Below are positions 814-29,413 of a stretch of DNA of 41,885 bases, one piece after another. Each line of letters opens with the position of its first letter. The stretch's first letter is position 1. The translations under genes and the position numbers were made by a program. The notes under the pieces were generated by a model that did not search any database, was not told the DNA's origin, and saw only the letters and a program-made list of their open reading frames with translations. The DNA lies in NCBI GenBank assembly GCA_024763335.1, contig JANTFS010000004.1, forward strand, positions 1 through 41,885, in the 5' to 3' direction. Source of the DNA: Paracoccaceae bacterium. Lineage in GTDB: Bacteria; Pseudomonadota; Alphaproteobacteria; Rhodobacterales; Rhodobacteraceae.

Positions 814-2184
814 ATGGCATCTGCAGCGGAACAAATGGCGTCGAACCTGTCCTGGGGCACGCTGGGCAAGGCGACCGAGCTTCGCCAACGTATCTTCTTC
901 ACCGTCGGCTTGCTGATCATCTACCGGATCGGCACCTATATCCCGGTCCCGGGAATTGACGCCGGTGCGCTGCGTGATTTCATGCAGCAGGCGCAGGCGG
1001 GCATTGGCGGGATCCTGTCGATGTTTACCGGCGGGGCACTTGGGCGGATGGGGGTCTTCGCCCTCGGGATCATGCCCTACATCTCGGCGTCGATCATTAT
1101 CCAGCTCGTGGCGACGATGTATGAGCCGTGGAAACAGATGCGCAAGGAAGGCGAACAGGGTCGGCGCAAGATCAACCAATACACCCGCTACGGCACCGTG
1201 GTGCTGGCGACAGGCCAGGCCTTCGCGCTGGCCAACTCGCTGCAGGCGGGCGATCTGGTGCACTCGCCCGGCATCTTTTTCATCATCTCGGCGGTGATCA
1301 CGCTGGTCGGCGGCACGATGTTCCTGATGTGGCTCGGCGAGCAGATCACCTCGCGCGGGATCGGCAACGGGATTTCACTGATCATCTTCGTGGGCATCGT
1401 GGCCGAGATTCCGGCCGCCGTGGTGCAGTTCCTCAGCCAGGGCCGGTCCGGGGCAATCAGCCCGGCGGTAATCATCGCCGTGCTTGTGATGGTGGTCGTG
1501 GTGATCGGCTTCGTGGTGTTCATGGAACGGGCGTTGCGCAAGATCCATATCCAGTATCCGCGCCGTCAGGTTGGCATGAAAATCTATGACGGCGGCTCCT
1601 CGCACTTGCCGATCAAGGTCAACCCCGCGGGCGTGATCCCGGCGATCTTCGCCTCCGCGCTCCTGCTGCTGCCAACGACGATCTCGACCTTCAACACCGG
1701 CCAGCAGGGCCCGGTGATGTCGACCCTGCTTGCCTACTTCGGTCCGGGCCAGCCGCTCTACCTGGTCTTCTACGCGGGCATGATCATCTTCTTTACCTTC
1801 TTCTATGCCCGCGAAGTGAGCTTCAAGGTCGACGAGGTGGCTGACAACCTGAAGAACCAGAACGGCTTCGTGCCCGGCATCCGCCCTGGCAAGAAAACCG
1901 CCGAATACCTCGATTACGTGCTCGTGCGCATTCTGACGCTGGGCGCGATCTATCTGGCGGCGGTCTGCCTTCTGCCGGAAGTGCTGCGCTCACAGTTTGC
2001 GATCCCGTTCTACTTCGGGGGCACCTCGGTGCTGATCGTGGTCTCGGTGACGATGGACACGATCAACCAGGTCCAGTCGCACCTGCTGGCCTACCAGTAT
2101 GAGGGGCTGATCGAGAAATCACAGCTGCGCGGCAAGCGCGGCACGAAATCGAAACCCGCCAAGAAGGGACCGGCGCGGCGATGA
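814..2184 (+). CDS. secY: Protein translocase subunit SecY
   Basis: Central channel subunit of the SecYEG translocon, which moves unfolded proteins across or into the inner membrane. The 456-residue product has the family's ten hydrophobic segments, starting with [20 protein letters not shown] near residues 30-48, the [21 protein letters not shown] segment, and the cytoplasmic loop with [19 protein letters not shown] that precedes a long hydrophobic stretch. The basic C-terminus ([18 protein letters not shown]) fits an alphaproteobacterial SecY. The ATG at 814 has GAGGGGG upstream. The stop overlaps the adk start as ATGA (2181-2184), so the two genes are translationally coupled. Confidence 0.98.
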
Positions 2185-2831
2185 ACATCATTCTTCTGGG
2201 ACCGCCCGGCGCGGGCAAAGGCACTCAGGCGCGCATTCTGGTGGCGGAACGGGGCATGATCCAGCTCTCCACCGGCGACATGCTGCGCGCGGCGCGCAGC
2301 TCGGGCAGCGAGATGGGCAAGCGCGTGGCGGCGATCATGGACGCCGGCGAACTGGTGACCGACGAGATCGTGATCGGCCTGATCGAGGAACAGCTCGAGG
2401 CCCATCCCGAGGGCGGTTTCATCTTCGATGGTTTCCCGCGCACGCTCGGGCAGGCTGACGCGCTGGGCGCGCTGCTTGAGAAGCACGGCATGAAGCTCGA
2501 TGCGGTGATCGAGATGCGGGTTGACGACGATGCGCTTGTCGAAAGGATCACCGCGCGGTCGACCTGCGCGACCTGCGGTGAAGTCTACAACGACATCACC
2601 AAGCCGATCCCGGCCGATGGCAAATGCGCGGTCTGCGGCGGCACCGAATTCAAGCGGCGGGCCGATGACAATGAAGAGAGCCTGCGCACCCGGCTGATGG
2701 AATATTACAAGAAAACCTCGCCGCTGATCGGCTATTACTACGCCAAGGGCGATCTCAGAACGGTCAACGGGCTGGGCGAGATCGACGAAGTGGCGGCAGA
2801 GATTGCCAAGGTGCTTGACAGCAGCGCCTGA
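2181..2831 (+). CDS. adk: Adenylate kinase
   Basis: Cytoplasmic nucleotide kinase converting ATP + AMP to 2 ADP. The 216-residue product has the P-loop GPPGAGKGT (residues 8-16), the AMP-binding STGDMLRA (30-37), the DGFPRTLGQ motif (83-91) and a long-form LID domain. The LID carries four cysteines (C129, C132, C149, C152) in C-x2-C / C-x2-C pairs, so it should bind zinc like Gram-positive and many alphaproteobacterial enzymes and unlike the E. coli one. The start overlaps the secY stop by four bases. In most alphaproteobacteria rpsM follows directly; here a marR/MBL pair lies between. Confidence 0.97.
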
Positions 2832-2900
2832 CGGCGCCGCTTCCACTTTGGCAGGCACCGGTCTGTCGGACATTTCCTCCCGGCAAACGCGCTTGGGCGC

Positions 2901-3380
2901 CTACCCGCCGTCAAGCTCTTGCGGATCGATCTTGAGCCTTGGCGGGTTGGCCGCATCGAGCCGTTCCCGCAGATCTTCGAGAAAACGCATCGTCCTTGCG
3001 CTTTCTTCGGGATCCAGCCCCAGCTCGGCAAATCCTTGCTGGACCAGCGCATCGGCGCGAGAAAGCAGGCCGCGCCCCTTGGGGGTGATCTCGATCAACA
3101 CCCGGCGCTCGTCATCCCGAGCGCGCTGGCGGGTGACAACGCCTGCGCTGGCCATCTTCTTGAGGAGCGGTGAAAGCGTGTTGGGCTCGACCCCGGCGCG
3201 CGCCGAAAGCTCGGAGATCGCCAGCGGACCTTCATCGCGCAGCGCGCTCATCAGCACCAGCTTCAGATAGGTCAGCCCGCTATCGCCCGCGATCGCCTGG
3301 TAGAACCGAACGAAGGCGCGGTTCGTGGCATAGACGTTGAAACACAGCCGCCGGGTGAAGGGGTACGGATCCTCGCTCAT
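2901..3380 (-). CDS. MarR-family transcriptional regulator, OhrR-like
   Basis: A 159-residue winged-helix regulator. The stretch RRLCFNVYATNRAF, the LTYLKLVLM segment, the recognition region (ISELSARAGVEPNTLSPLLKKM) and the DERRVLIEIT wing match the OhrR/MgrA branch of MarR, whose members sense peroxides through an N-terminal cysteine. Cys13 lies where the sensing cysteine is expected (family knowledge). No ohr gene is adjacent; the divergent neighbour is a metallo-hydrolase. It probably represses itself and that neighbour through the palindrome at 3418-3438. It is convergent with adk, 69 bp from the adk stop. The ligand or oxidant is unknown. Confidence 0.85.
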   Translation of the reverse strand: MSEDPYPFTRRLCFNVYATNRAFVRFYQAIAGDSGLTYLKLVLMSALRDEGPLAISELSARAGVEPNTLSPLLKKMASAGVVTRQRARDDERRVLIEITPKGRGLLSRADALVQQGFAELGLDPEESARTMRFLEDLRERLDAANPPRLKIDPQELDGG

Positions 3381-3417
3381 TTGGTCCGGTCATACTTCGT
3401 GTCGGCGCAGAAAGAAA

Positions 3418-3438
3418 GGATTGACATAAATACAATCC
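3418..3438. promoter_or_regulatory. Candidate MarR/OhrR operator overlapping the MBL-gene promoter
   Basis: Within the 105-bp divergent gap, GGATTG (3418-3423) and CAATCC (3433-3438) form a perfect inverted repeat with a 9-bp A/T-rich spacer. The left arm overlaps a consensus -35 hexamer TTGACA (3421-3426) reading toward the MBL gene. The -10 is unclear: AAAGAT at 3446-3451 is one option, and TACAAT at 3431-3436 could serve with a different -35. Size and symmetry suit a MarR-family dimer, so this is the likely operator of the divergent regulator. Binding is inferred. Confidence 0.55.
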
Positions 3439-3485
3439 GTAGCGAAAAGATCGCATACGAAATAATCGTGCACGAGGAGAAAGCC

Positions 3486-4454
3486 ATGACCACCAGAATG
3501 ACACGCCGCGCCTTTGGGCTGGCCGGGCTTGGCGGCGCCGCCGCAACGCTCGGCGCCGCCGCAACCGCACCTGCTACGGCCGCCACTGAGGCGATGGCCG
3601 TCGCCCCGGCCATGTATGATGCGCCCGTCGGCAATTACCGGCTGACCGCGATCTTCGATGGCATGATCCCGCTTGGCAAAAACCTGTTCTTCGGCCCCGA
3701 TCAGGCCGACATCGATGCCGCCCTTGGGGCTGTCGGGATCGAAGGCGAAACCCTGCCGGTGCCGGCCACTGCCTATCTTCTGCGCTCCGAGGATCGGACG
3801 ATCCTGATCGATGCCGGCTTTGGCGAGTTGGAAATGTTCGGCCCCGGCTTCGGCCGCCTGAGCCCGGCGCTGGCCGCTGCCGGCGTCGCGCCGCAGGATG
3901 TCGATCTGATCATCGCCACCCATGCGCACCCTGACCACATCGGCGGCCTGCTGCGCGGTGGGCAGGCTGCCTTTCCCGAGGCCGAGCTGGTGATTTCCAA
4001 TGTCGATCACGGCTTCTGGAGCGACGCCGGCATGATGGCGCAGGCCCCGAAAGAGGCGCAGGGCATGTTTGGGCTGGCCCAGGCGGTGTTTGGCGCATAT
4101 GCAAAACGGCTGCGCCCGGTGGCCTCGGGTTCCGAGGTCGCGCCGGGGGTAAGGCTGGAGCTTTCGCCGGGCCATACGCCGGGGCACAGCGTGATCCATA
4201 TCGACGGCGGCACGCAGGAGCTCCTGCTGGCCGCCGATACGGTGCTGCACCCGGATCTGCAAACTGCCCTGCCCGAGGTGCTGACGGGCTTTGACATCGA
4301 TGCCGCGCAGGCCGCGCAGTCGCGCGCCGCGATCTTCGACCGGGCCGCCAGCGATGGCATCCTGATCGCCGCGAGCCATGTGCATTTCCCCGGCTTCGGG
4401 CGGTTTGTGCGTAATGGCTCGGGCTATCGCTTCGCGCCGGCAAGCTGGCTGTAG
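3486..4454 (+). CDS. Tat-exported metallo-beta-lactamase-fold hydrolase
   Basis: A 322-residue MBL-fold metallo-hydrolase. The zinc signature THAHPDH gives H146, H148, D150 and H151; further ligands are the GHTPGH segment (H230/H234), D251 and the late SHVHF (H298/H300). The N-terminus MTTRMTRRAFGLAGLGG followed by an Ala-rich stretch is a twin-arginine signal, implying folded export to the periplasm. The start at 3486 is chosen because GAGGAGA lies at 3474-3480 and because it places the RR motif near the N-terminus; the frame is open back to 3381. It is divergent from the OhrR-like regulator. The substrate is unknown; lactonases, sulfatases and glyoxalase II-like enzymes share the fold. Confidence 0.85.
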   Translation: MTTRMTRRAFGLAGLGGAAATLGAAATAPATAATEAMAVAPAMYDAPVGNYRLTAIFDGMIPLGKNLFFGPDQADIDAALGAVGIEGETLPVPATAYLLRSEDRTILIDAGFGELEMFGPGFGRLSPALAAAGVAPQDVDLIIATHAHPDHIGGLLRGGQAAFPEAELVISNVDHGFWSDAGMMAQAPKEAQGMFGLAQAVFGAYAKRLRPVASGSEVAPGVRLELSPGHTPGHSVIHIDGGTQELLLAADTVLHPDLQTALPEVLTGFDIDAAQAAQSRAAIFDRAASDGILIAASHVHFPGFGRFVRNGSGYRFAPASWL

Positions 4455-4695: not shown

Positions 4696-5064
4696 TTGGC
4701 ACGTATTGCCGGCGTGAACATCCCGACGCACAAGCGCGTCCCGATCGCCCTCACCTACATCACCGGAATTGGCCCCGCGTCCGCGAAGAAGATCTGCGAG
4801 GCGGCGAAGATCGACGAAAGCCGTCGCGTCAACGAATTGTCTGACGCCGAAGTGCTCGCGATCCGCGAACAGATCGACGCGAACTACCTCGTGGAAGGTG
4901 ATCTGCGCCGTGAGGTGCAGATGAACATCAAGCGCCTGATGGACCTTGGCTGCTATCGCGGCCTGCGCCATCGCCGCAACCTGCCCGTGCGCGGCCAGCG
5001 CACCCACACCAATGCCCGTACCCGCAAGGGCCCGGCCAAGCCGATCGCCGGCAAGAAGAAATAA
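4696..5064 (+). CDS. rpsM: 30S ribosomal protein S13
   Basis: S13 sits in the head of the 30S subunit and contacts S19 and the P-site tRNA. The 122-residue product begins [20 protein letters not shown], has the helix-two-turn-helix [15 protein letters not shown], and ends with the basic [20 protein letters not shown] region and a lysine-rich tail. The start codon is TTG (4696), preceded by AAGGAAG; no upstream ATG fits. This is the first gene of a block running to rplQ, and it is separated from adk by the marR/MBL pair and served by its own promoter. Confidence 0.97.
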
Positions 5065-5079
5065 GGGAGGGTTACGGAT

Positions 5080-5469
5080 ATGGCTCGCGACAAGACACGC
5101 ACCAAGCGCAAAGAGCGCAAGAACATCGCCTCCGGCGTTGCTCACGTGAACTCTTCGTTCAACAACACCAAGATCCTGATCTCCGACGTGCAAGGCAATG
5201 CGATTGCCTGGTCGTCGGCCGGTACGATGGGCTTCAAGGGGTCGCGCAAGTCGACGCCCTACGCCGCCCAGATGGCCGCTGAAGATGCCGGTCGCAAGGC
5301 ACAGGAACATGGGGTGAAGACTCTCGAAGTCGAGGTTCAGGGCCCCGGTTCGGGCCGTGAGTCGGCGCTGCGCGCACTGGCCGCGATTGGCTTCAACATC
5401 ACGTCGATCCGCGACGTGACGCCGATCGCCCACAACGGCTGCCGCCCGCCGAAACGCCGCCGGGTGTAA
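5080..5469 (+). CDS. rpsK: 30S ribosomal protein S11
   Basis: S11 forms part of the 30S platform near the E site, close to S7 and the mRNA exit. The 129-residue product shows the family core [38 protein letters not shown] and the C-terminal [18 protein letters not shown], essentially invariant in bacteria. It lies 15 bp after rpsM with GGGAGG just behind the rpsM stop. A strong hairpin follows before rpoA. Confidence 0.98.
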
Positions 5470-8151: not shown

Positions 8152-9462
8152 ATGGCGGATCTATTTGACAGCGTTTCGCGGCCAGGGCCCGACACTGCGC
8201 CGCGGCCCTTGGCCGACCGGCTGCGCCCGCGGGCGCTTTGCGAGGTGATCGGGCAGGACGAACTTCTGGGCCCCGACGGTCCGCTTGGCACGATGCTGGC
8301 GGCGGGGTCGCTTGGTTCGCTTATCCTGTGGGGGCCGCCCGGCGTGGGAAAAACCACAATTGCGCGCCTGCTCGCGAAAGAGACCGATCTGCATTTTGTC
8401 CAGATCAGCGCGATCTTCACCGGCGTGCCCGAGCTTCGCAAGGTCTTCGAAGCGGCCAAGCACCGGCGCGCAAACGGGCAGGGGACATTGCTGTTCGTCG
8501 ATGAAATTCATCGCTTCAACAAGGCCCAGCAGGACGGGTTCTTGCCGCATATGGAAGACGGCACGATCCTGCTCGTGGGGGCGACGACGGAGAATCCCTC
8601 CTTCGAGTTGAACGCCGCGCTTTTGAGCCGGGCGCAGGTCTTGGTGCTGAAGCGCCTTGGCCCGGCCGATCTGGAGCGGCTTGCGCAACGGGCGGAGAAA
8701 GAACTCGGCCGCGCGCTGCCGCTTGACGGGCCGGCGCGCGAGGCGCTGATCGAGATGGCGGATGGTGACGGGCGGGCGCTGCTCAATCTGATCGAGCAGG
8801 TGATGGCATGGAACGTCGAGGGCCGCCTCGACCGCGATGCGCTTTCGACCCGGCTGATGCGCCGCGCCGCGCGCTACGACAAGGCCGGCGACGAGCATTA
8901 CAACCTGATCAGCGCGTTGCACAAATCGGTGCGCGGATCGGACCCGGACGCCGCGCTTTACTGGTTCAACCGGATGCTGCTGGGCGGGGAAGACCCGCGG
9001 TTTTTGGCCCGCAGGCTCACAAGGATGGCGGTGGAGGATATCGGGCTCGCCGATCCGCAGGCCAATGCCGTTTGCCTGCATGCGTGGGAGACTTACGAGC
9101 GGCTTGGCAGTCCGGAAGGGGAGCTCGCGCTGGCGCAGGCGGTGATCTATCTCGCGCTCGCGCCGAAATCGAATGCAGGCTACGTGGCCTACAAGCAGGC
9201 CGCCGCGGCGGCGAAGAAGACCGGCTCGGAGCCGCCGCCCAAGCACATCCTCAACGCGCCCACGAAGCTCATGGAAGAGCAGGGGTATGGCGATGGCTAT
9301 GCCTATGACCACGACGCGCCAGATGCCTTTTCGGGGCAGAACTATTTCCCCGATGGCATGAAGCGCGGGGTTTACTACCTGCCGCCCGAACGTGGCTTCG
9401 AGCGCGAACTGAAGAAGCGCGTCGAGTGGTTTGCGAAGCTGCGCGAGAAGCGGCGAGGTTGA
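8152..9462 (+). CDS. rarA: Replication-associated recombination protein A (RarA/MgsA AAA+ ATPase)
   Basis: AAA+ ATPase related to clamp-loader subunits and to WRNIP1, acting at stalled replication forks. The 436-residue product starts MADLFDSVSRPG, has the RarA N-terminal motif LADRLRPRALCEVIGQDELLG, Walker A GPPGVGKTT near residue 64 and Walker B LLFVDEIHRFNK near residue 114, then the family C-terminal part (EHYNLISALHKSVRGSDPDAALYW, GYGDGYAYDHD, FPDGM). The length is normal. It heads a compact run with crcB, rluC, a HAD gene and ATP12, but the 31-bp gap to crcB leaves room for independent expression. Confidence 0.95.
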   Translation: MADLFDSVSRPGPDTAPRPLADRLRPRALCEVIGQDELLGPDGPLGTMLAAGSLGSLILWGPPGVGKTTIARLLAKETDLHFVQISAIFTGVPELRKVFEAAKHRRANGQGTLLFVDEIHRFNKAQQDGFLPHMEDGTILLVGATTENPSFELNAALLSRAQVLVLKRLGPADLERLAQRAEKELGRALPLDGPAREALIEMADGDGRALLNLIEQVMAWNVEGRLDRDALSTRLMRRAARYDKAGDEHYNLISALHKSVRGSDPDAALYWFNRMLLGGEDPRFLARRLTRMAVEDIGLADPQANAVCLHAWETYERLGSPEGELALAQAVIYLALAPKSNAGYVAYKQAAAAAKKTGSEPPPKHILNAPTKLMEEQGYGDGYAYDHDAPDAFSGQNYFPDGMKRGVYYLPPERGFERELKKRVEWFAKLREKRRG

Positions 9463-9493
9463 CAAGAGGCGCGCGGCAGACAAGGAAGCGGGC

Positions 9494-9871
9494 ATGTTTG
9501 CAACGCTTCTCTCCGTGGCTCTTGGCGGCGCGATCGGCGCATCGGGGCGCTATCTGGTCAATGTCGGGGTGACCCGGCTCATCGGCCATGGCTTCCCCTT
9601 TGCCACGATTGTGGCCAACGTTCTCGGCTCGTTCCTGATGGGCGTCATGGTGGTGGTGCTCGCCAAGAAGGGCGGCCACGTCTATGCGCCGTTCCTGATG
9701 ACGGGCGTGCTGGGCGGGTTCACCACCTTCTCGGCCTTCTCGCTCGACACGATCACGTTGTTTGAACGCGGCGAGGCGGGGCTTGCGGGGCTTTATGCCG
9801 GGCTGTCGGTCTTTCTGTCGCTTGCGGCGATTGCGGTGGGCGTGTTGGCGACTCGTGCGGTCCTGCAATGA
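9494..9871 (+). CDS. crcB: Fluoride efflux channel CrcB/Fluc
   Basis: Small inner-membrane protein that forms dual-topology dimeric fluoride channels. The 125-residue product has four hydrophobic segments and the family motifs GGAIGASGRYLV near the N-terminus, FPFATIVANVLGSFLMG in helix 2 and TGVLGGFTTFSAFSLD in helix 3. The ATG at 9494 has AAGGAAG at 9482-9488; the frame is open back to 9431 but without a comparable site. The stop overlaps the rluC start as ATGA (9868-9871). No fluoride riboswitch can be recognised in the 31 bp upstream. Confidence 0.93.
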   Translation: MFATLLSVALGGAIGASGRYLVNVGVTRLIGHGFPFATIVANVLGSFLMGVMVVVLAKKGGHVYAPFLMTGVLGGFTTFSAFSLDTITLFERGEAGLAGLYAGLSVFLSLAAIAVGVLATRAVLQ

Positions 9872-10923
9872 GCGGCGTGCAGAAGCTCATCGTCGCCGCG
9901 GGCGAGGGCGACCAGCGGCTTGACCGGTGGTTCCGCCGCCAGTTTCCGCATGTGCCGCAGGGGCGGATCGAGAAGATGTGCCGGAAGGGTGAAATCCGGG
10001 TCGACGGCGGCCGGGTGAAACCTGCGACCCGGCTGGAGGAAGGTCAGGAGGTTCGCATCCCGCCGCTGCCCGATGCCGCGGCACCGGCAGCCGCGCCCGC
10101 GGCGCCGCGGATCTCGGATGCCGATGCGAAGATGATTCGCGATGCGGTGATCTACCGCGACGACGACATCATCGCGATCAACAAGCCGCCGGGGTTGCCA
10201 AGTCAGGGCGGATCGAAGCAAACCCGGCATGTCGACGGGCTGGCGGAGGCGCTCAAGTTCGGGCGCGAGGAGAAACCCCGCCTTGTGCACCGGCTCGACA
10301 AGGACACCTCGGGCGTGCTCCTTCTCGCCCGCAGCCGCGCCATGGCCAAGGCGCTTACCGACGCCTTTCGCGCGCGCGACACGCGCAAGATCTACTGGGC
10401 GGTGGTGGCGGGAGTGCCCAGCCCGCGCATGGGAACGGTGAAATGGGGGCTGGTGAAAGCCTCGGGCCACGGCGCGGCGGGTGAGGGCGAGAAGATGATC
10501 TGCGTTCACCCCGATGCGGTGGATACCACGCCCGGGGCGAAGCGGGCCGTGACGGATTACGCCGTGCTGCAAAGCCTTGGCACGCGCGCGGCGTGGGTGG
10601 CGCTGGTGCCGGTGACGGGGCGCACCCACCAGCTGCGCGCCCACATGGCCGAAATGGGCCACCCGATCATCGGCGACGGCAAATACGGCGGCTCGGGGCA
10701 GGTCAACCTCGGCGATGGCTGGGGGGCGATGCTCGGCGGCGAGATCTCGAAGAAACTGCACCTGCACGCGCGCTCGATCAGTTTCACCCATCCCATGACC
10801 GGCAAGCGCCTGACGATCATCGCGCCGCTTCCGGAGCACATGAGGCGCACCTGGGAGGCGCTTGGCTTCAATGAGCTGGACGTGCCCGAAGACCCGTTCT
10901 CGGAGGACGCCGGGTGGAGCTGA
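9868..10923 (+). CDS. rluC: Ribosomal large subunit pseudouridine synthase, RluC/RluD family
   Basis: RluA-family enzyme converting uridines of 23S rRNA to pseudouridine. The 351-residue product has an S4 RNA-binding domain (about residues 12-68, including QGRIEKMCRKGEIRVDGGRVKP) and a catalytic domain with VHRLDKDTSGVLLLAR, in which D144 is the catalytic aspartate, and TGRTHQLRAHMAEMGHPIIGD. An S4 domain points to RluC or RluD; the neighbourhood with crcB and a HAD gene favours RluC. An Ala/Pro-rich linker (about 68-80) joins the two domains. Start and stop overlap both neighbours, indicating translational coupling. Confidence 0.88.
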   Translation: MSGVQKLIVAAGEGDQRLDRWFRRQFPHVPQGRIEKMCRKGEIRVDGGRVKPATRLEEGQEVRIPPLPDAAAPAAAPAAPRISDADAKMIRDAVIYRDDDIIAINKPPGLPSQGGSKQTRHVDGLAEALKFGREEKPRLVHRLDKDTSGVLLLARSRAMAKALTDAFRARDTRKIYWAVVAGVPSPRMGTVKWGLVKASGHGAAGEGEKMICVHPDAVDTTPGAKRAVTDYAVLQSLGTRAAWVALVPVTGRTHQLRAHMAEMGHPIIGDGKYGGSGQVNLGDGWGAMLGGEISKKLHLHARSISFTHPMTGKRLTIIAPLPEHMRRTWEALGFNELDVPEDPFSEDAGWS

Positions 10924-27945: not shown

Positions 27946-28320
27946 ATGCCAAGGGATGACGTCGGCAAATCGGTTTACCGGATTCGTCTGGAAGCGGGCG
28001 GTGCGCAGGCCAACCTCAGGATCGAGATATCGGACCTGCCCGGCAAAGAGAAGTGGATGTGCAATCCAAGTTCCTTTCTGGGCGAGGCAGACGGTGTCGT
28101 GGCGTGGAAGGGCACCAGGATTGGGCTCTTTTCGCATGACACGATGCAGATGGACAATGACATTGGCTACAAGGTGGTCAAGCCCGGCGCGCAGGCCTTG
28201 GCAATACTCGACATCCCGCGCGAGGGGCTTGATTCTGTCGCCGAAGGAGAGGGCGGCACTGCCTATGTCTCTGGCCGCGAGGGCGGCAGTTGGACACGCC
28301 GGGGCAACCAGCTCTTCTAG
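27946..28320 (+). CDS. Unrecognised 124-residue protein
   Basis: I do not recognise a family. The product MPRDDVGKSVYRIRLEAGG... has no signal peptide or membrane segment, one cysteine (WMCNPSS), and alternating hydrophobic residues suggesting beta strands (QANLRIEISDL, DGVVAWKGTRIGLF, QALAILDIP), with a glycine-rich end (EGEGGTAYVSGREGGSW). A beta-sandwich or barrel is plausible. It is supported as a gene by AAGGGGG seven bases before the ATG, a TATAAT box, and a strong terminator after it. Codon use is slightly less GC-rich than its neighbours. It points against the surrounding minus-strand genes between yidD and the DsrC-like gene. Confidence 0.65.
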   Translation: MPRDDVGKSVYRIRLEAGGAQANLRIEISDLPGKEKWMCNPSSFLGEADGVVAWKGTRIGLFSHDTMQMDNDIGYKVVKPGAQALAILDIPREGLDSVAEGEGGTAYVSGREGGSWTRRGNQLF

Positions 28321-28371
28321 CGGCGACCGTTTGGGTCCGTCTGACCGACGGCGTCCGGAGGCGCGCTACAA

Positions 28372-28402
28372 AAAAGGCCCGCGCTACGGTCGCGGGCCTT
28401 TT
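28372..28402. terminator. Bidirectional terminator between the unknown gene and the DsrC-like gene
   Basis: AAAAGGCCCGCG (28372-28383) and CGCGGGCCTTTT (28391-28402) pair perfectly over 12 bp with a 7-nt loop, giving T-tracts on both strands. It lies 51 bp after the stop at 28320 and 30 bp beyond the minus-strand stop at 28433, so it can serve both convergent genes. Confidence 0.92.
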
Positions 28403-28432
28403 GATTGTTAGGCATGTTGAGCCCGACCGGGC

Positions 28433-28774
28433 TCAGTAACCGCCCTTGCGGCGGCTTTCCGGCAGCCCGGCGATCCGGCCGCCTTGCTTCGACGGATCAA
28501 GCGGGAACAGCGCGTAGAGATCGCCCTGCTTGATCTTCTCCCCCCATTTGTCGCTCATCGCCTTGATGATGGCGCGTGTGTTTGGCTGGTTCTCGCGGTT
28601 TTCGAAGTACTCCGAGCGCAGGTAGTTGATCACGTCCCAGTGCCGCTCGGTGAGCTCGCCGATGTCCTCGGCCGCCGCCATGGCGCGAGCAAGATCTTCG
28701 CTCCAGTCTTCTTGGTTCACGAGATAGCCGCTGTCGGTTGTCTCGATCGTTTGGCCGTTGAGTTCGAAAGCCAT
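28433..28774 (-). CDS. TusE/DsrC/DsvC superfamily protein without cysteine
   Basis: The 113-residue product has the family fold signature: EDWSEDLARAMAAAEDIGELTERHWDVINYLRSEYFE, the helix with NTRAIIKAM, LYALFPLDPSKQGGRIAGLP. TusE and DsrC carry sulfur on a C-terminal cysteine just after AGLP; here the C-terminus reads AGLPESRRKGGY and the protein has no cysteine at all. It therefore cannot act as a persulfide carrier. From memory, cysteine-free members have been termed RspA and thought regulatory. A GGAGGGAGG site precedes the ATG. It lies 79 bp downstream of rnpA on the same strand. Confidence 0.85.
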   Translation of the reverse strand: MAFELNGQTIETTDSGYLVNQEDWSEDLARAMAAAEDIGELTERHWDVINYLRSEYFENRENQPNTRAIIKAMSDKWGEKIKQGDLYALFPLDPSKQGGRIAGLPESRRKGGY

Positions 28775-28853: not shown

Positions 28854-29252
28854 TCAAGGGGCAGAGCCGCGTTGATGGACCTTCGCGAGCGCGCGCAACA
28901 GGTCTTTTTTCATCGCGTCAAACGGGTGCGACACGGTTGCGCCCGCTCTTGCAACAAGCACATAGTCCCATCCCGGCACGCCGGCGTTCGGCAATATGTC
29001 ACGTGCCAGCGCCCGCAATCGGCGCTTGGCGCGGTTGCGGGAGACGGCGTTGCCCACCTTCTTCGACGCGGTGTAGCCGATGCGGATCACGTCGTCTGCT
29101 TCGCGCTGGCGGGCCTGGAGCACGAAGGCCGGCATGGCGGCCTTGCGGGCCCGGGCGCAGGCGAGGAAATCGGCGCGCTTTTTCAGGGTTTCCAGGCAAA
29201 CGGAAACCGCCGGGGGCGTGTCCGTCGTCACGGGAGCCTCCGGCGGTTTCAT
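28854..29252 (-). CDS. rnpA: Ribonuclease P protein component
   Basis: Protein subunit of RNase P, which matures the 5' ends of tRNAs. The 132-residue product has LKKRADFLACARARK near the N-terminus and the RNR signature IGYTASKKVGNAVSRNRAKRRLRALAR, followed by YVLVARAGATVSHPFDAMKKDL. The start is uncertain: the ATG at 29252 (MKPPEAP) lies 26 bp after rpmH but has no clear ribosome binding site, whereas GTG at 29231 has GGAGG five bases upstream and would give 125 residues. It is cotranscribed with rpmH. Confidence 0.94.
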   Translation of the reverse strand: MKPPEAPVTTDTPPAVSVCLETLKKRADFLACARARKAAMPAFVLQARQREADDVIRIGYTASKKVGNAVSRNRAKRRLRALARDILPNAGVPGWDYVLVARAGATVSHPFDAMKKDLLRALAKVHQRGSAP

Positions 29253-29278: not shown

Positions 29279-29413
29279 TCAGGCGCTGAGCGACTTGCGG
29301 CCCCGCGCGCGGCGCGCGTTGAGGATCTTGCGGCCGGCTTTCGTTGCCATGCGCGCACGGAAGCCGTGGCGGCGCTTGCGAACGAGGTTCGAGGGTTGAT
29401 AGGTGCGTTTCAT
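29279..29413 (-). CDS. rpmH: 50S ribosomal protein L34
   Basis: The smallest large-subunit protein: 44 residues beginning [21 protein letters not shown], with the invariant [20 protein letters not shown] end. GGAGA lies upstream of the ATG at 29413. The longer reading frame continuing to 29698 is an artefact of the missing stop upstream. It is the first gene of the rpmH-rnpA unit and is served by the promoter at 29483-29511. Confidence 0.98.

Follow-up and report, generated by a model that had tools for sequence, protein, structure and literature searches.

The window, a stretch of 41,885 nucleotides of contig C4 in a Paracoccaceae bacterium genome (G000), carries at 28433..28774 on the minus strand an open reading frame with an ATG start, which profile matches and a structure model identify as a cysteine-free DsrC paralog of 113 aa, belonging to what we call the RKGGY subfamily. 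Its translation is devoid of cysteine and its C-terminal end reads AGLPESRRKGGY. The KGGY codons of this end occupy 28436..28447 (-), their penultimate Gly standing at the position of the carrier cysteine of DsrC; the same end recurs in 84 RKGGY-type loci (83 of them distinct) and in five GKGGY relatives. The codon of Gly99 (28478..28480, minus strand) corresponds to the first conserved cysteine of DsrC, a position held by Gly at a frequency of 0.91 in the RKGGY group vs. Cys at 1.00 in canonical DsrC. Directly 3´ of the gene lies a terminator-like hairpin with a U run (28368..28404, minus strand; -27 kcal/mol for 28355-28420, z -3.25); a terminator consensus scan listed no terminator. Upstream on the same strand are rnpA (28854..29252, recognized by profile and tblastn, 83 bp from the tblastn match) and rpmH (approximately 29279..29413, from the ORF list and tblastn), the first gene of a presumed rpmH-rnpA-dsrC-like transcript; both neighbours had been named correctly in the initial annotation. 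A promoter-like site near rpmH, at 29565-29538 (-), was recognized by consensus match only. From the shared strand, this promoter-like site and the hairpin 3´ of the gene, we infer that the dsrC-like gene is probably co-transcribed with rpmH and rnpA. An ORF convergent with it (27946-28320, plus strand, 124 aa) has no Pfam or NCBIfam match.

The Pfam DsrC profile (PF04358) matched the protein with 112.7 bits (E 1.5e-32, cutoff 24.9), which places it in the DsrC superfamily, and TIGR03342 matched with 97.4 bits against a cutoff of 53.5. An AlphaFold2 model, computed from a 60-row alignment of orthologs, reached pLDDT 90.8 and pTM 0.83. All eight PDB matches of this predicted fold at E<=0.001 were DsrC/TusE-family chains, the best of them (TM 0.85, 40% identity in the structural alignment) being A. 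vinosum DsrC, PDB 1yx3, which is also the best relative of known structure by sequence (E 1.6e-20); the next structural match was LexA at E 0.56. The DsrC/TusE relationship claimed from the sequence alone is thus borne out. In the model, residues 110-113 alone fall below pLDDT 50, for which reason the C-terminal arm may be read as free.

Alignment with 40 canonical DsrC rows, a check already proposed in the initial annotation, located the differences. DsrC has two carrier cysteines, whereas the window protein has Gly99 at the first of these positions and Gly112 at the penultimate one, and its arm is two residues longer, ending in KGGY instead of TGCV or TGCI. Neither the penultimate cysteine of DsrC proper (Gly here and in all 84 RKGGY-type loci) nor the one about 11 residues upstream of it is therefore present. 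Both kinds of protein have Arg53, Pro64, Arg67, Lys71, Lys96, Gln97 and Gly103 in common; in trees, the KGGY group stands apart from canonical DsrC. Oxidative-type DsrC and the KGGY proteins occur in the same organisms, in part as neighbouring genes. Having no cysteine, the protein is unable to carry a cysteine persulfide, as had been claimed, and one can fairly expect it to act as something other than a carrier, for instance as a regulator or scaffold. The earlier wording that it "has lost" its cysteine is right as to the absence but undersells the change, because a fixed KGGY tail is found in its place. A cysteine-free protein of DsrC fold with a fixed KGGY end is thus confirmed, and the KGGY group is an exception inside the shared DsrC family models.

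TusE, whose role is tRNA thiolation, has the same Pfam/TIGR family and fold (E. coli b0969). TusE retains the penultimate cysteine, whereas the window protein has none anywhere and scores 81.3 bits with the TusE equivalog model, below its cutoff of 191. The statement that no tusBCD genes lie nearby holds as well: the DsrE/TusD family (PF02635) has no match on contig C4, and its three matches in the window's genome are located on contigs C96 (two) and C89 (one). Those on C96 correspond to dsrE and dsrF, which stand next to dsrH, dsrC, dsrM and dsrK.

Contig C96 contains dsrE, F, H, C, M, K and L together with a dsrN-like match, and its dsrC possesses both carrier cysteines. On contig C59 we found dsrA (572 bits) with dsrB adjoining, the dsr cluster of this genome being split over C59 and C96 (L158, L099). 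A cysG match follows a TauD/79-aa/DUF6967 block on C59, which keeps the siroheme gene close to dsr in spite of the KGGY gene being located elsewhere. The genome has four DsrC-family genes, of which one only has both carrier cysteines and three are cysteine-free. Besides the window gene, the latter are a paralog at 9527-9895 (-) of contig C19 (L100), ending in RAWSTG, and another at 2144-2533 (-) of contig C147 (L101), ending in REEAAG; relatives of the RAWSTG type (L104, L107, L110) retain Cys at the first cysteine position. As a single gene of the four has both carrier cysteines, we warn that counts of "dsrC" genes overestimate sulfur carriers.

Next, we examined how far the tail is conserved. 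Public genomes were searched with the window protein by patterns that did not include the tail, which yielded 105 relatives; the best 80 loci of these 105 were analysed. The KGGY end is encoded at all 80. A sequencing error or frameshift hiding a cysteine-containing C-terminus, which the initial annotation had named as one thing that would refute it, is therefore very unlikely, and we reject it. Adding the window and three further loci (L103, L106, L109) gave a set of 84, of which 83 are distinct, the DNA of L106 being that of L008. In the last 24 columns, the residues invariant in all 84 loci are F and P (-24, -23), P (-20), K and Q (-18, -17), G (-11), E (-8), R (-5) and KGGY itself; the strictest conservation in the family falls on the C-terminal arm. 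Cysteine is absent from 78 of the 84 proteins and occurs once in each of the other six (L018, L019, L054, L070, L075, L077), never in the C-terminal arm. Different loci encode KGGY by 28 different codon strings, and seven pairs with the window gene gave omega values of 0.036-0.18 (dS was saturated in one pair). Evidently, the tail has been kept by purifying selection. The 80 loci come from records titled as alpha- and gammaproteobacteria. Isolates are represented in the scan too, namely Rhodobium orientis, Maritimibacter fusiformis and Rhodoblastus acidophilus.

We then asked in which genomes the gene occurs. Among the 80 locus genomes, dsrA is found above cutoff in 68 (42 of 50 plus 26 of 30) and, according to the match tables, as pieces in eight more (G569, G572, G579, G592, G596, G614, G622, G643); two show nothing but a dsrB-like piece (G603, G631), and the remaining two (G586, G620), whose loci are both titled MAG, have no convincing dsrAB piece. 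In a phylum sample of 398 genomes, dsrA is above cutoff in 52. The RKGGY DNA pattern was detected in five genomes of the 398, all within these 52, and in none of the 346 with no dsrA match or one below cutoff. By hand calculation, ignoring kinship, the chance of all five falling in the 52 is about 3e-5; three of the five (G379, G426, G295) are, by identical dsrA coordinates, also among the 80. The KGGY gene often accompanies reverse-Dsr (rDsr) sulfur oxidation in alpha- and gammaproteobacterial records.

A profile search of the 47 dsrA-bearing genomes lacking the RKGGY pattern revealed five further full-length relatives (G472, G537, G428, G452, G405), all ending in GKGGY, a type searched for in dsrA-bearing genomes only. 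One of them (G452) retains Cys at the first cysteine position and another (G428) has a Cys at residue 77, so that the constant feature is the KGGY end rather than the complete absence of cysteine. Trees were built with the tail columns removed, the second of them without five long-branch rows. In these two trees, the RKGGY rows (n=58) form one group with support 99 and 94, and the GKGGY rows (n=5) a separate group with support 98 and 99. Both types together form one group in either tree, with SH-aLRT 93 in the second tree and 0 in the first, which includes the long-branch rows. A single origin of the KGGY tail thus appears likely from the sequences, at a confidence lowered by this dependence on row choice; another fixed tail has taken the place of the cysteine tail, perhaps in a single event. 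The nearest named relatives of the window protein in the second tree are from Maritimibacter.

The KGGY gene is not universal in rDsr. No KGGY gene is seen in 42 of the 52 dsrA-bearing phylum genomes: three have no profile match at all, and the other 39 contain 46 matches, of which 44 could be read to the end, none of them KGGY, and two, both in G271, are cut by contig ends. We considered that these 42 genomes might belong to sulfate reducers and found this unsupported; a DsrE relative is present in 49 of the 52 dsrA-bearing genomes, and DsrD was detected in none of the 52 and in none of the control genomes either. In six of the 42 that were examined more closely (L162-L167), a dsrL-like gene of a more distant kind comes after dsrAB, with no adjoining dsrEFH, and in G244, also lacking KGGY, dsrE directly adjoins dsrB. 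Five DsrC-family matches from dsrA-bearing genomes without KGGY gene (L202, L205, L206, L207, L208) show yet another tail, PMPC.C(D/N), with two closely spaced near-terminal cysteines. Within Rhodobacterales (196 genomes sampled), a DsrC-family gene was found in six, the KGGY type occurring in G000, G011, G122 and G184. The other two, G103 and G128, possess full dsr clusters with TauD-like, 79-aa, DUF6967 and mrp matches and canonical DsrC only, which means that the KGGY protein is not essential to rDsr.

Gene contexts were established by tblastn with reference proteins; since many loci are cut by contig ends, all counts of neighbours are lower bounds. At least 20 of the 84 loci have a Cas6-like gene directly upstream, at least 15 have cysG, mrp or dsrN no more than 400 bp away, and at least 23 (the repeat L106 included) are situated in an rpmH-rnpA-yidD-ttcA block; 26 show neither kind of setting. 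A Cas6-like or a siroheme/iron-sulfur gene (cysG, dsrN, mrp) is thus a neighbour at 35 loci in total, and the reference search found none of these beside the gene at the other 49, including the window. Linkage to dsr is partial, two or more dsr genes being seen at 25 of the 84 loci. For the 26 loci with neither setting, none of the ten largest groups of common neighbours listed exceeds four loci, always L015, L017, L030 and L047.

The order at Cas6-like loci is TauD-like dioxygenase, small protein, Cas6-like gene and KGGY gene; on contigs that extend far enough, this row is divergent from dsrABEFHCMKL. At L031, L042 and L043, cysG precedes the KGGY gene as the last member of a TauD-small protein-DUF6967-cysG block, which diverges from dsrAB (no TauD match is listed for L043). 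In nine loci (L034, L036, L040, L046, L049, L053, L060, L068, L074), it comes after dsrN-cysG(-mrp) or dsrN, where the dsr cluster ends. The GKGGY genes of G537, G428, G452 and G405 are divergent and near dsrA, with DUF6967 and Cas6-like matches in between. Two recurrent companions deserve mention in their own right. The Cas6/Cmx6-like gene at 9214-9912 (+) of L083, upstream of the KGGY gene (PF09559 169 bits; TIGR02807 101.3 against a cutoff of 98.85), and its counterparts at 19 other loci have dsr next to them, which is unusual company for a gene related to a CRISPR RNA endonuclease. In seven of seven clusters (L158, at 2483-3738 (+) on contig C59 of the window's genome; L111, L112, L152-L155), DUF6967 and a TauD-like dioxygenase are found divergent near dsrA, with the 79-aa protein also at L158, L111 and L112.

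The rpmH-rnpA-yidD-ttcA block exists without the KGGY gene in five relatives examined (L175, L177-L180). It follows that rnpA and rpmH are uninformative on function and that the gene moved in: they are a housekeeping block entered by the KGGY gene in Rhodobacterales, where it is frequently seen in this position. We reject a functional unit with ttcA or rnpA, this block being older.

DsrC acts by inserting its arm into partner proteins, including the channel of DsrAB that leads to siroheme; in D. vulgaris DsrAB, of which PDB 2v4j is the complex with DsrC, the DsrC arm enters this channel. We propose, tentatively and with a confidence that stops a little short of even, that the KGGY protein is a dedicated accessory of rDsr sulfur oxidation that docks preferably on DsrAB and whose arm takes part in maturation or gating. 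This DsrC paralog has kept the predicted fold and swapped the cysteine arm for a fixed arm ending in KGGY, and it cannot carry sulfur as cysteine persulfide. Most likely, it would dock on one of the partners of DsrC, preferably DsrAB with its channel to siroheme, and its arm would hold or gate the DsrAB site during cofactor loading or assembly (siroheme, amidation, Fe-S) or, alternatively, when substrate is short. Our preference for maturation comes from the 15 loci, out of 84, in which the gene is linked to cysG, dsrN and mrp. In a sharper form, the KGGY group might be a new component of oxidative Dsr, a pseudo-carrier whose arm lies in the DsrAB channel and orders the siroheme site while amidated siroheme and Fe-S clusters are loaded. 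We consider this form rather unlikely as it stands; the assembly role it assumes would explain the place of the gene after cysG, dsrN and mrp.

Related proteins have been described in part. Five phage DsrC-like proteins have neither cysteine motif, according to PMC8190135, and resemble the window protein in being DsrC-family members without cysteine motifs, from phages of sulfur oxidisers. A viral DsrC without the second C-terminal cysteine is described in PMC4164917. PMC11267869 states that A. vinosum has four TusE/DsrC/DsvC-family genes besides dsrC and that one of the four, Alvin_1508, is down-regulated like most dsr genes, and PMC7787665 mentions several DsrC-family proteins in the Riftia symbiont. 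The main text of PMC10504309, which presents a DsrC phylogeny, does not contain the word "cysteine". Our search of open-licence literature returned no paper that we recognised as describing a KGGY DsrC. An RKGGY gene with 66% identity is located at 4971-5312 (+) of an IMG/VR contig (L151), which also carries two genes of phage families, a Mom-like one for DNA modification and one for an endonuclease; the RKGGY gene is possibly a phage auxiliary gene.

Two other explanations retain some weight. The protein could be a regulator of dsr genes, acting by DNA binding or at the protein level, with the DsrC fold serving as transcription factor or co-regulator. DsrC homologues lacking cysteines were reportedly named Rsp/RspA, "regulatory sulfur-related", by Venceslau et al. 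in 2014; by this definition, a DsrC homologue free of carrier cysteines, the window protein fits, and Rsp/RspA is probably the nearest named category for the KGGY group. The divergent placement near dsrA in some loci is a common position for a regulator. Moreover, PMC7787665 refers to that 2014 review when it mentions that DsrC may have a function in the regulation of transcription. However, the protein is acidic (net charge -6 in the window, -5.6 as family mean), Foldseek matches to HTH regulators have E 0.56 or worse, and the strictest conservation sits in the arm. A transcription regulator is therefore possible, not favoured, and we consider the whole idea unlikely. From the suggestion of the initial annotation that the protein "regulates or scaffolds", the non-carrier role survives, but DNA-binding regulation is unsupported for the same reasons.

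Alternatively, the protein might act as a competitive decoy or brake, occupying DsrEFH, DsrAB or DsrK instead of DsrC and throttling sulfur flow, with no part in maturation. The fold and the residues held in common with canonical DsrC would suit such competition, and the copy beside phage-family genes on the IMG/VR contig would be expected if it tuned host sulfur flow. Linkage to cysG, dsrN or mrp, on the other hand, points to cofactor supply over throttling, and we judge a decoy to be no better than an outside candidate, roughly on a par with regulation.

Each of the 84 loci, like all five GKGGY proteins, has a Gly-Gly followed by a single last residue. This raises the idea of a cysteine-free sulfur carrier, whose Tyr would be trimmed to yield a thiocarboxylate, as in carriers of the ThiS/MoaD/QbsE type, in some of which residues after GG are trimmed. 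Against it, no gene of E1-like or JAMM type happened to catch the eye in the neighbourhoods scanned; E1-type activating enzymes recognise the ubiquitin-like fold, not that of DsrC; and the second Gly is explicable by a Cys to Gly change in an ancestral GC end. We regard such a carrier as very improbable. Hardly better placed, indeed slightly worse, is a substitute for TusE in tRNA thiolation, perhaps together with ttcA, which lies near the gene in the window and in several other loci of the rnpA type. Common family membership would allow it, but the missing carrier cysteine, the equivalog score, the absence of RKGGY from all 346 phylum genomes with dsrA below cutoff or absent, and the rpmH-rnpA-yidD-ttcA block without the gene in five relatives speak against it. 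We reject the TusE reading on these grounds, and the tRNA 2-thiouridine frame of the initial annotation gives way, by genome content and by the 35 of 84 neighbourhoods, to rDsr. Finally, a functionless remnant of a dsrC duplication, suggested by the disappearance of both carrier cysteines, is scarcely credible and contradicted by the selection data, given an intact KGGY at 84 of 84 loci, the low omega values and the presence in alpha- and gammaproteobacterial records.

Returning to the accessory of rDsr that we prefer, the conservation of the replacement tail in related bacteria suggests that the KGGY protein has a separate job in the sulfur-oxidation machinery. Its arm allows a clear question to be put, namely whether a cysteine-free DsrC fold binds DsrAB and whether DsrAB depends on it for siroheme. 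If the pseudo-carrier form of the proposal were true, sulfur oxidisers would have made an assembly factor from a sulfur carrier by replacing its arm.
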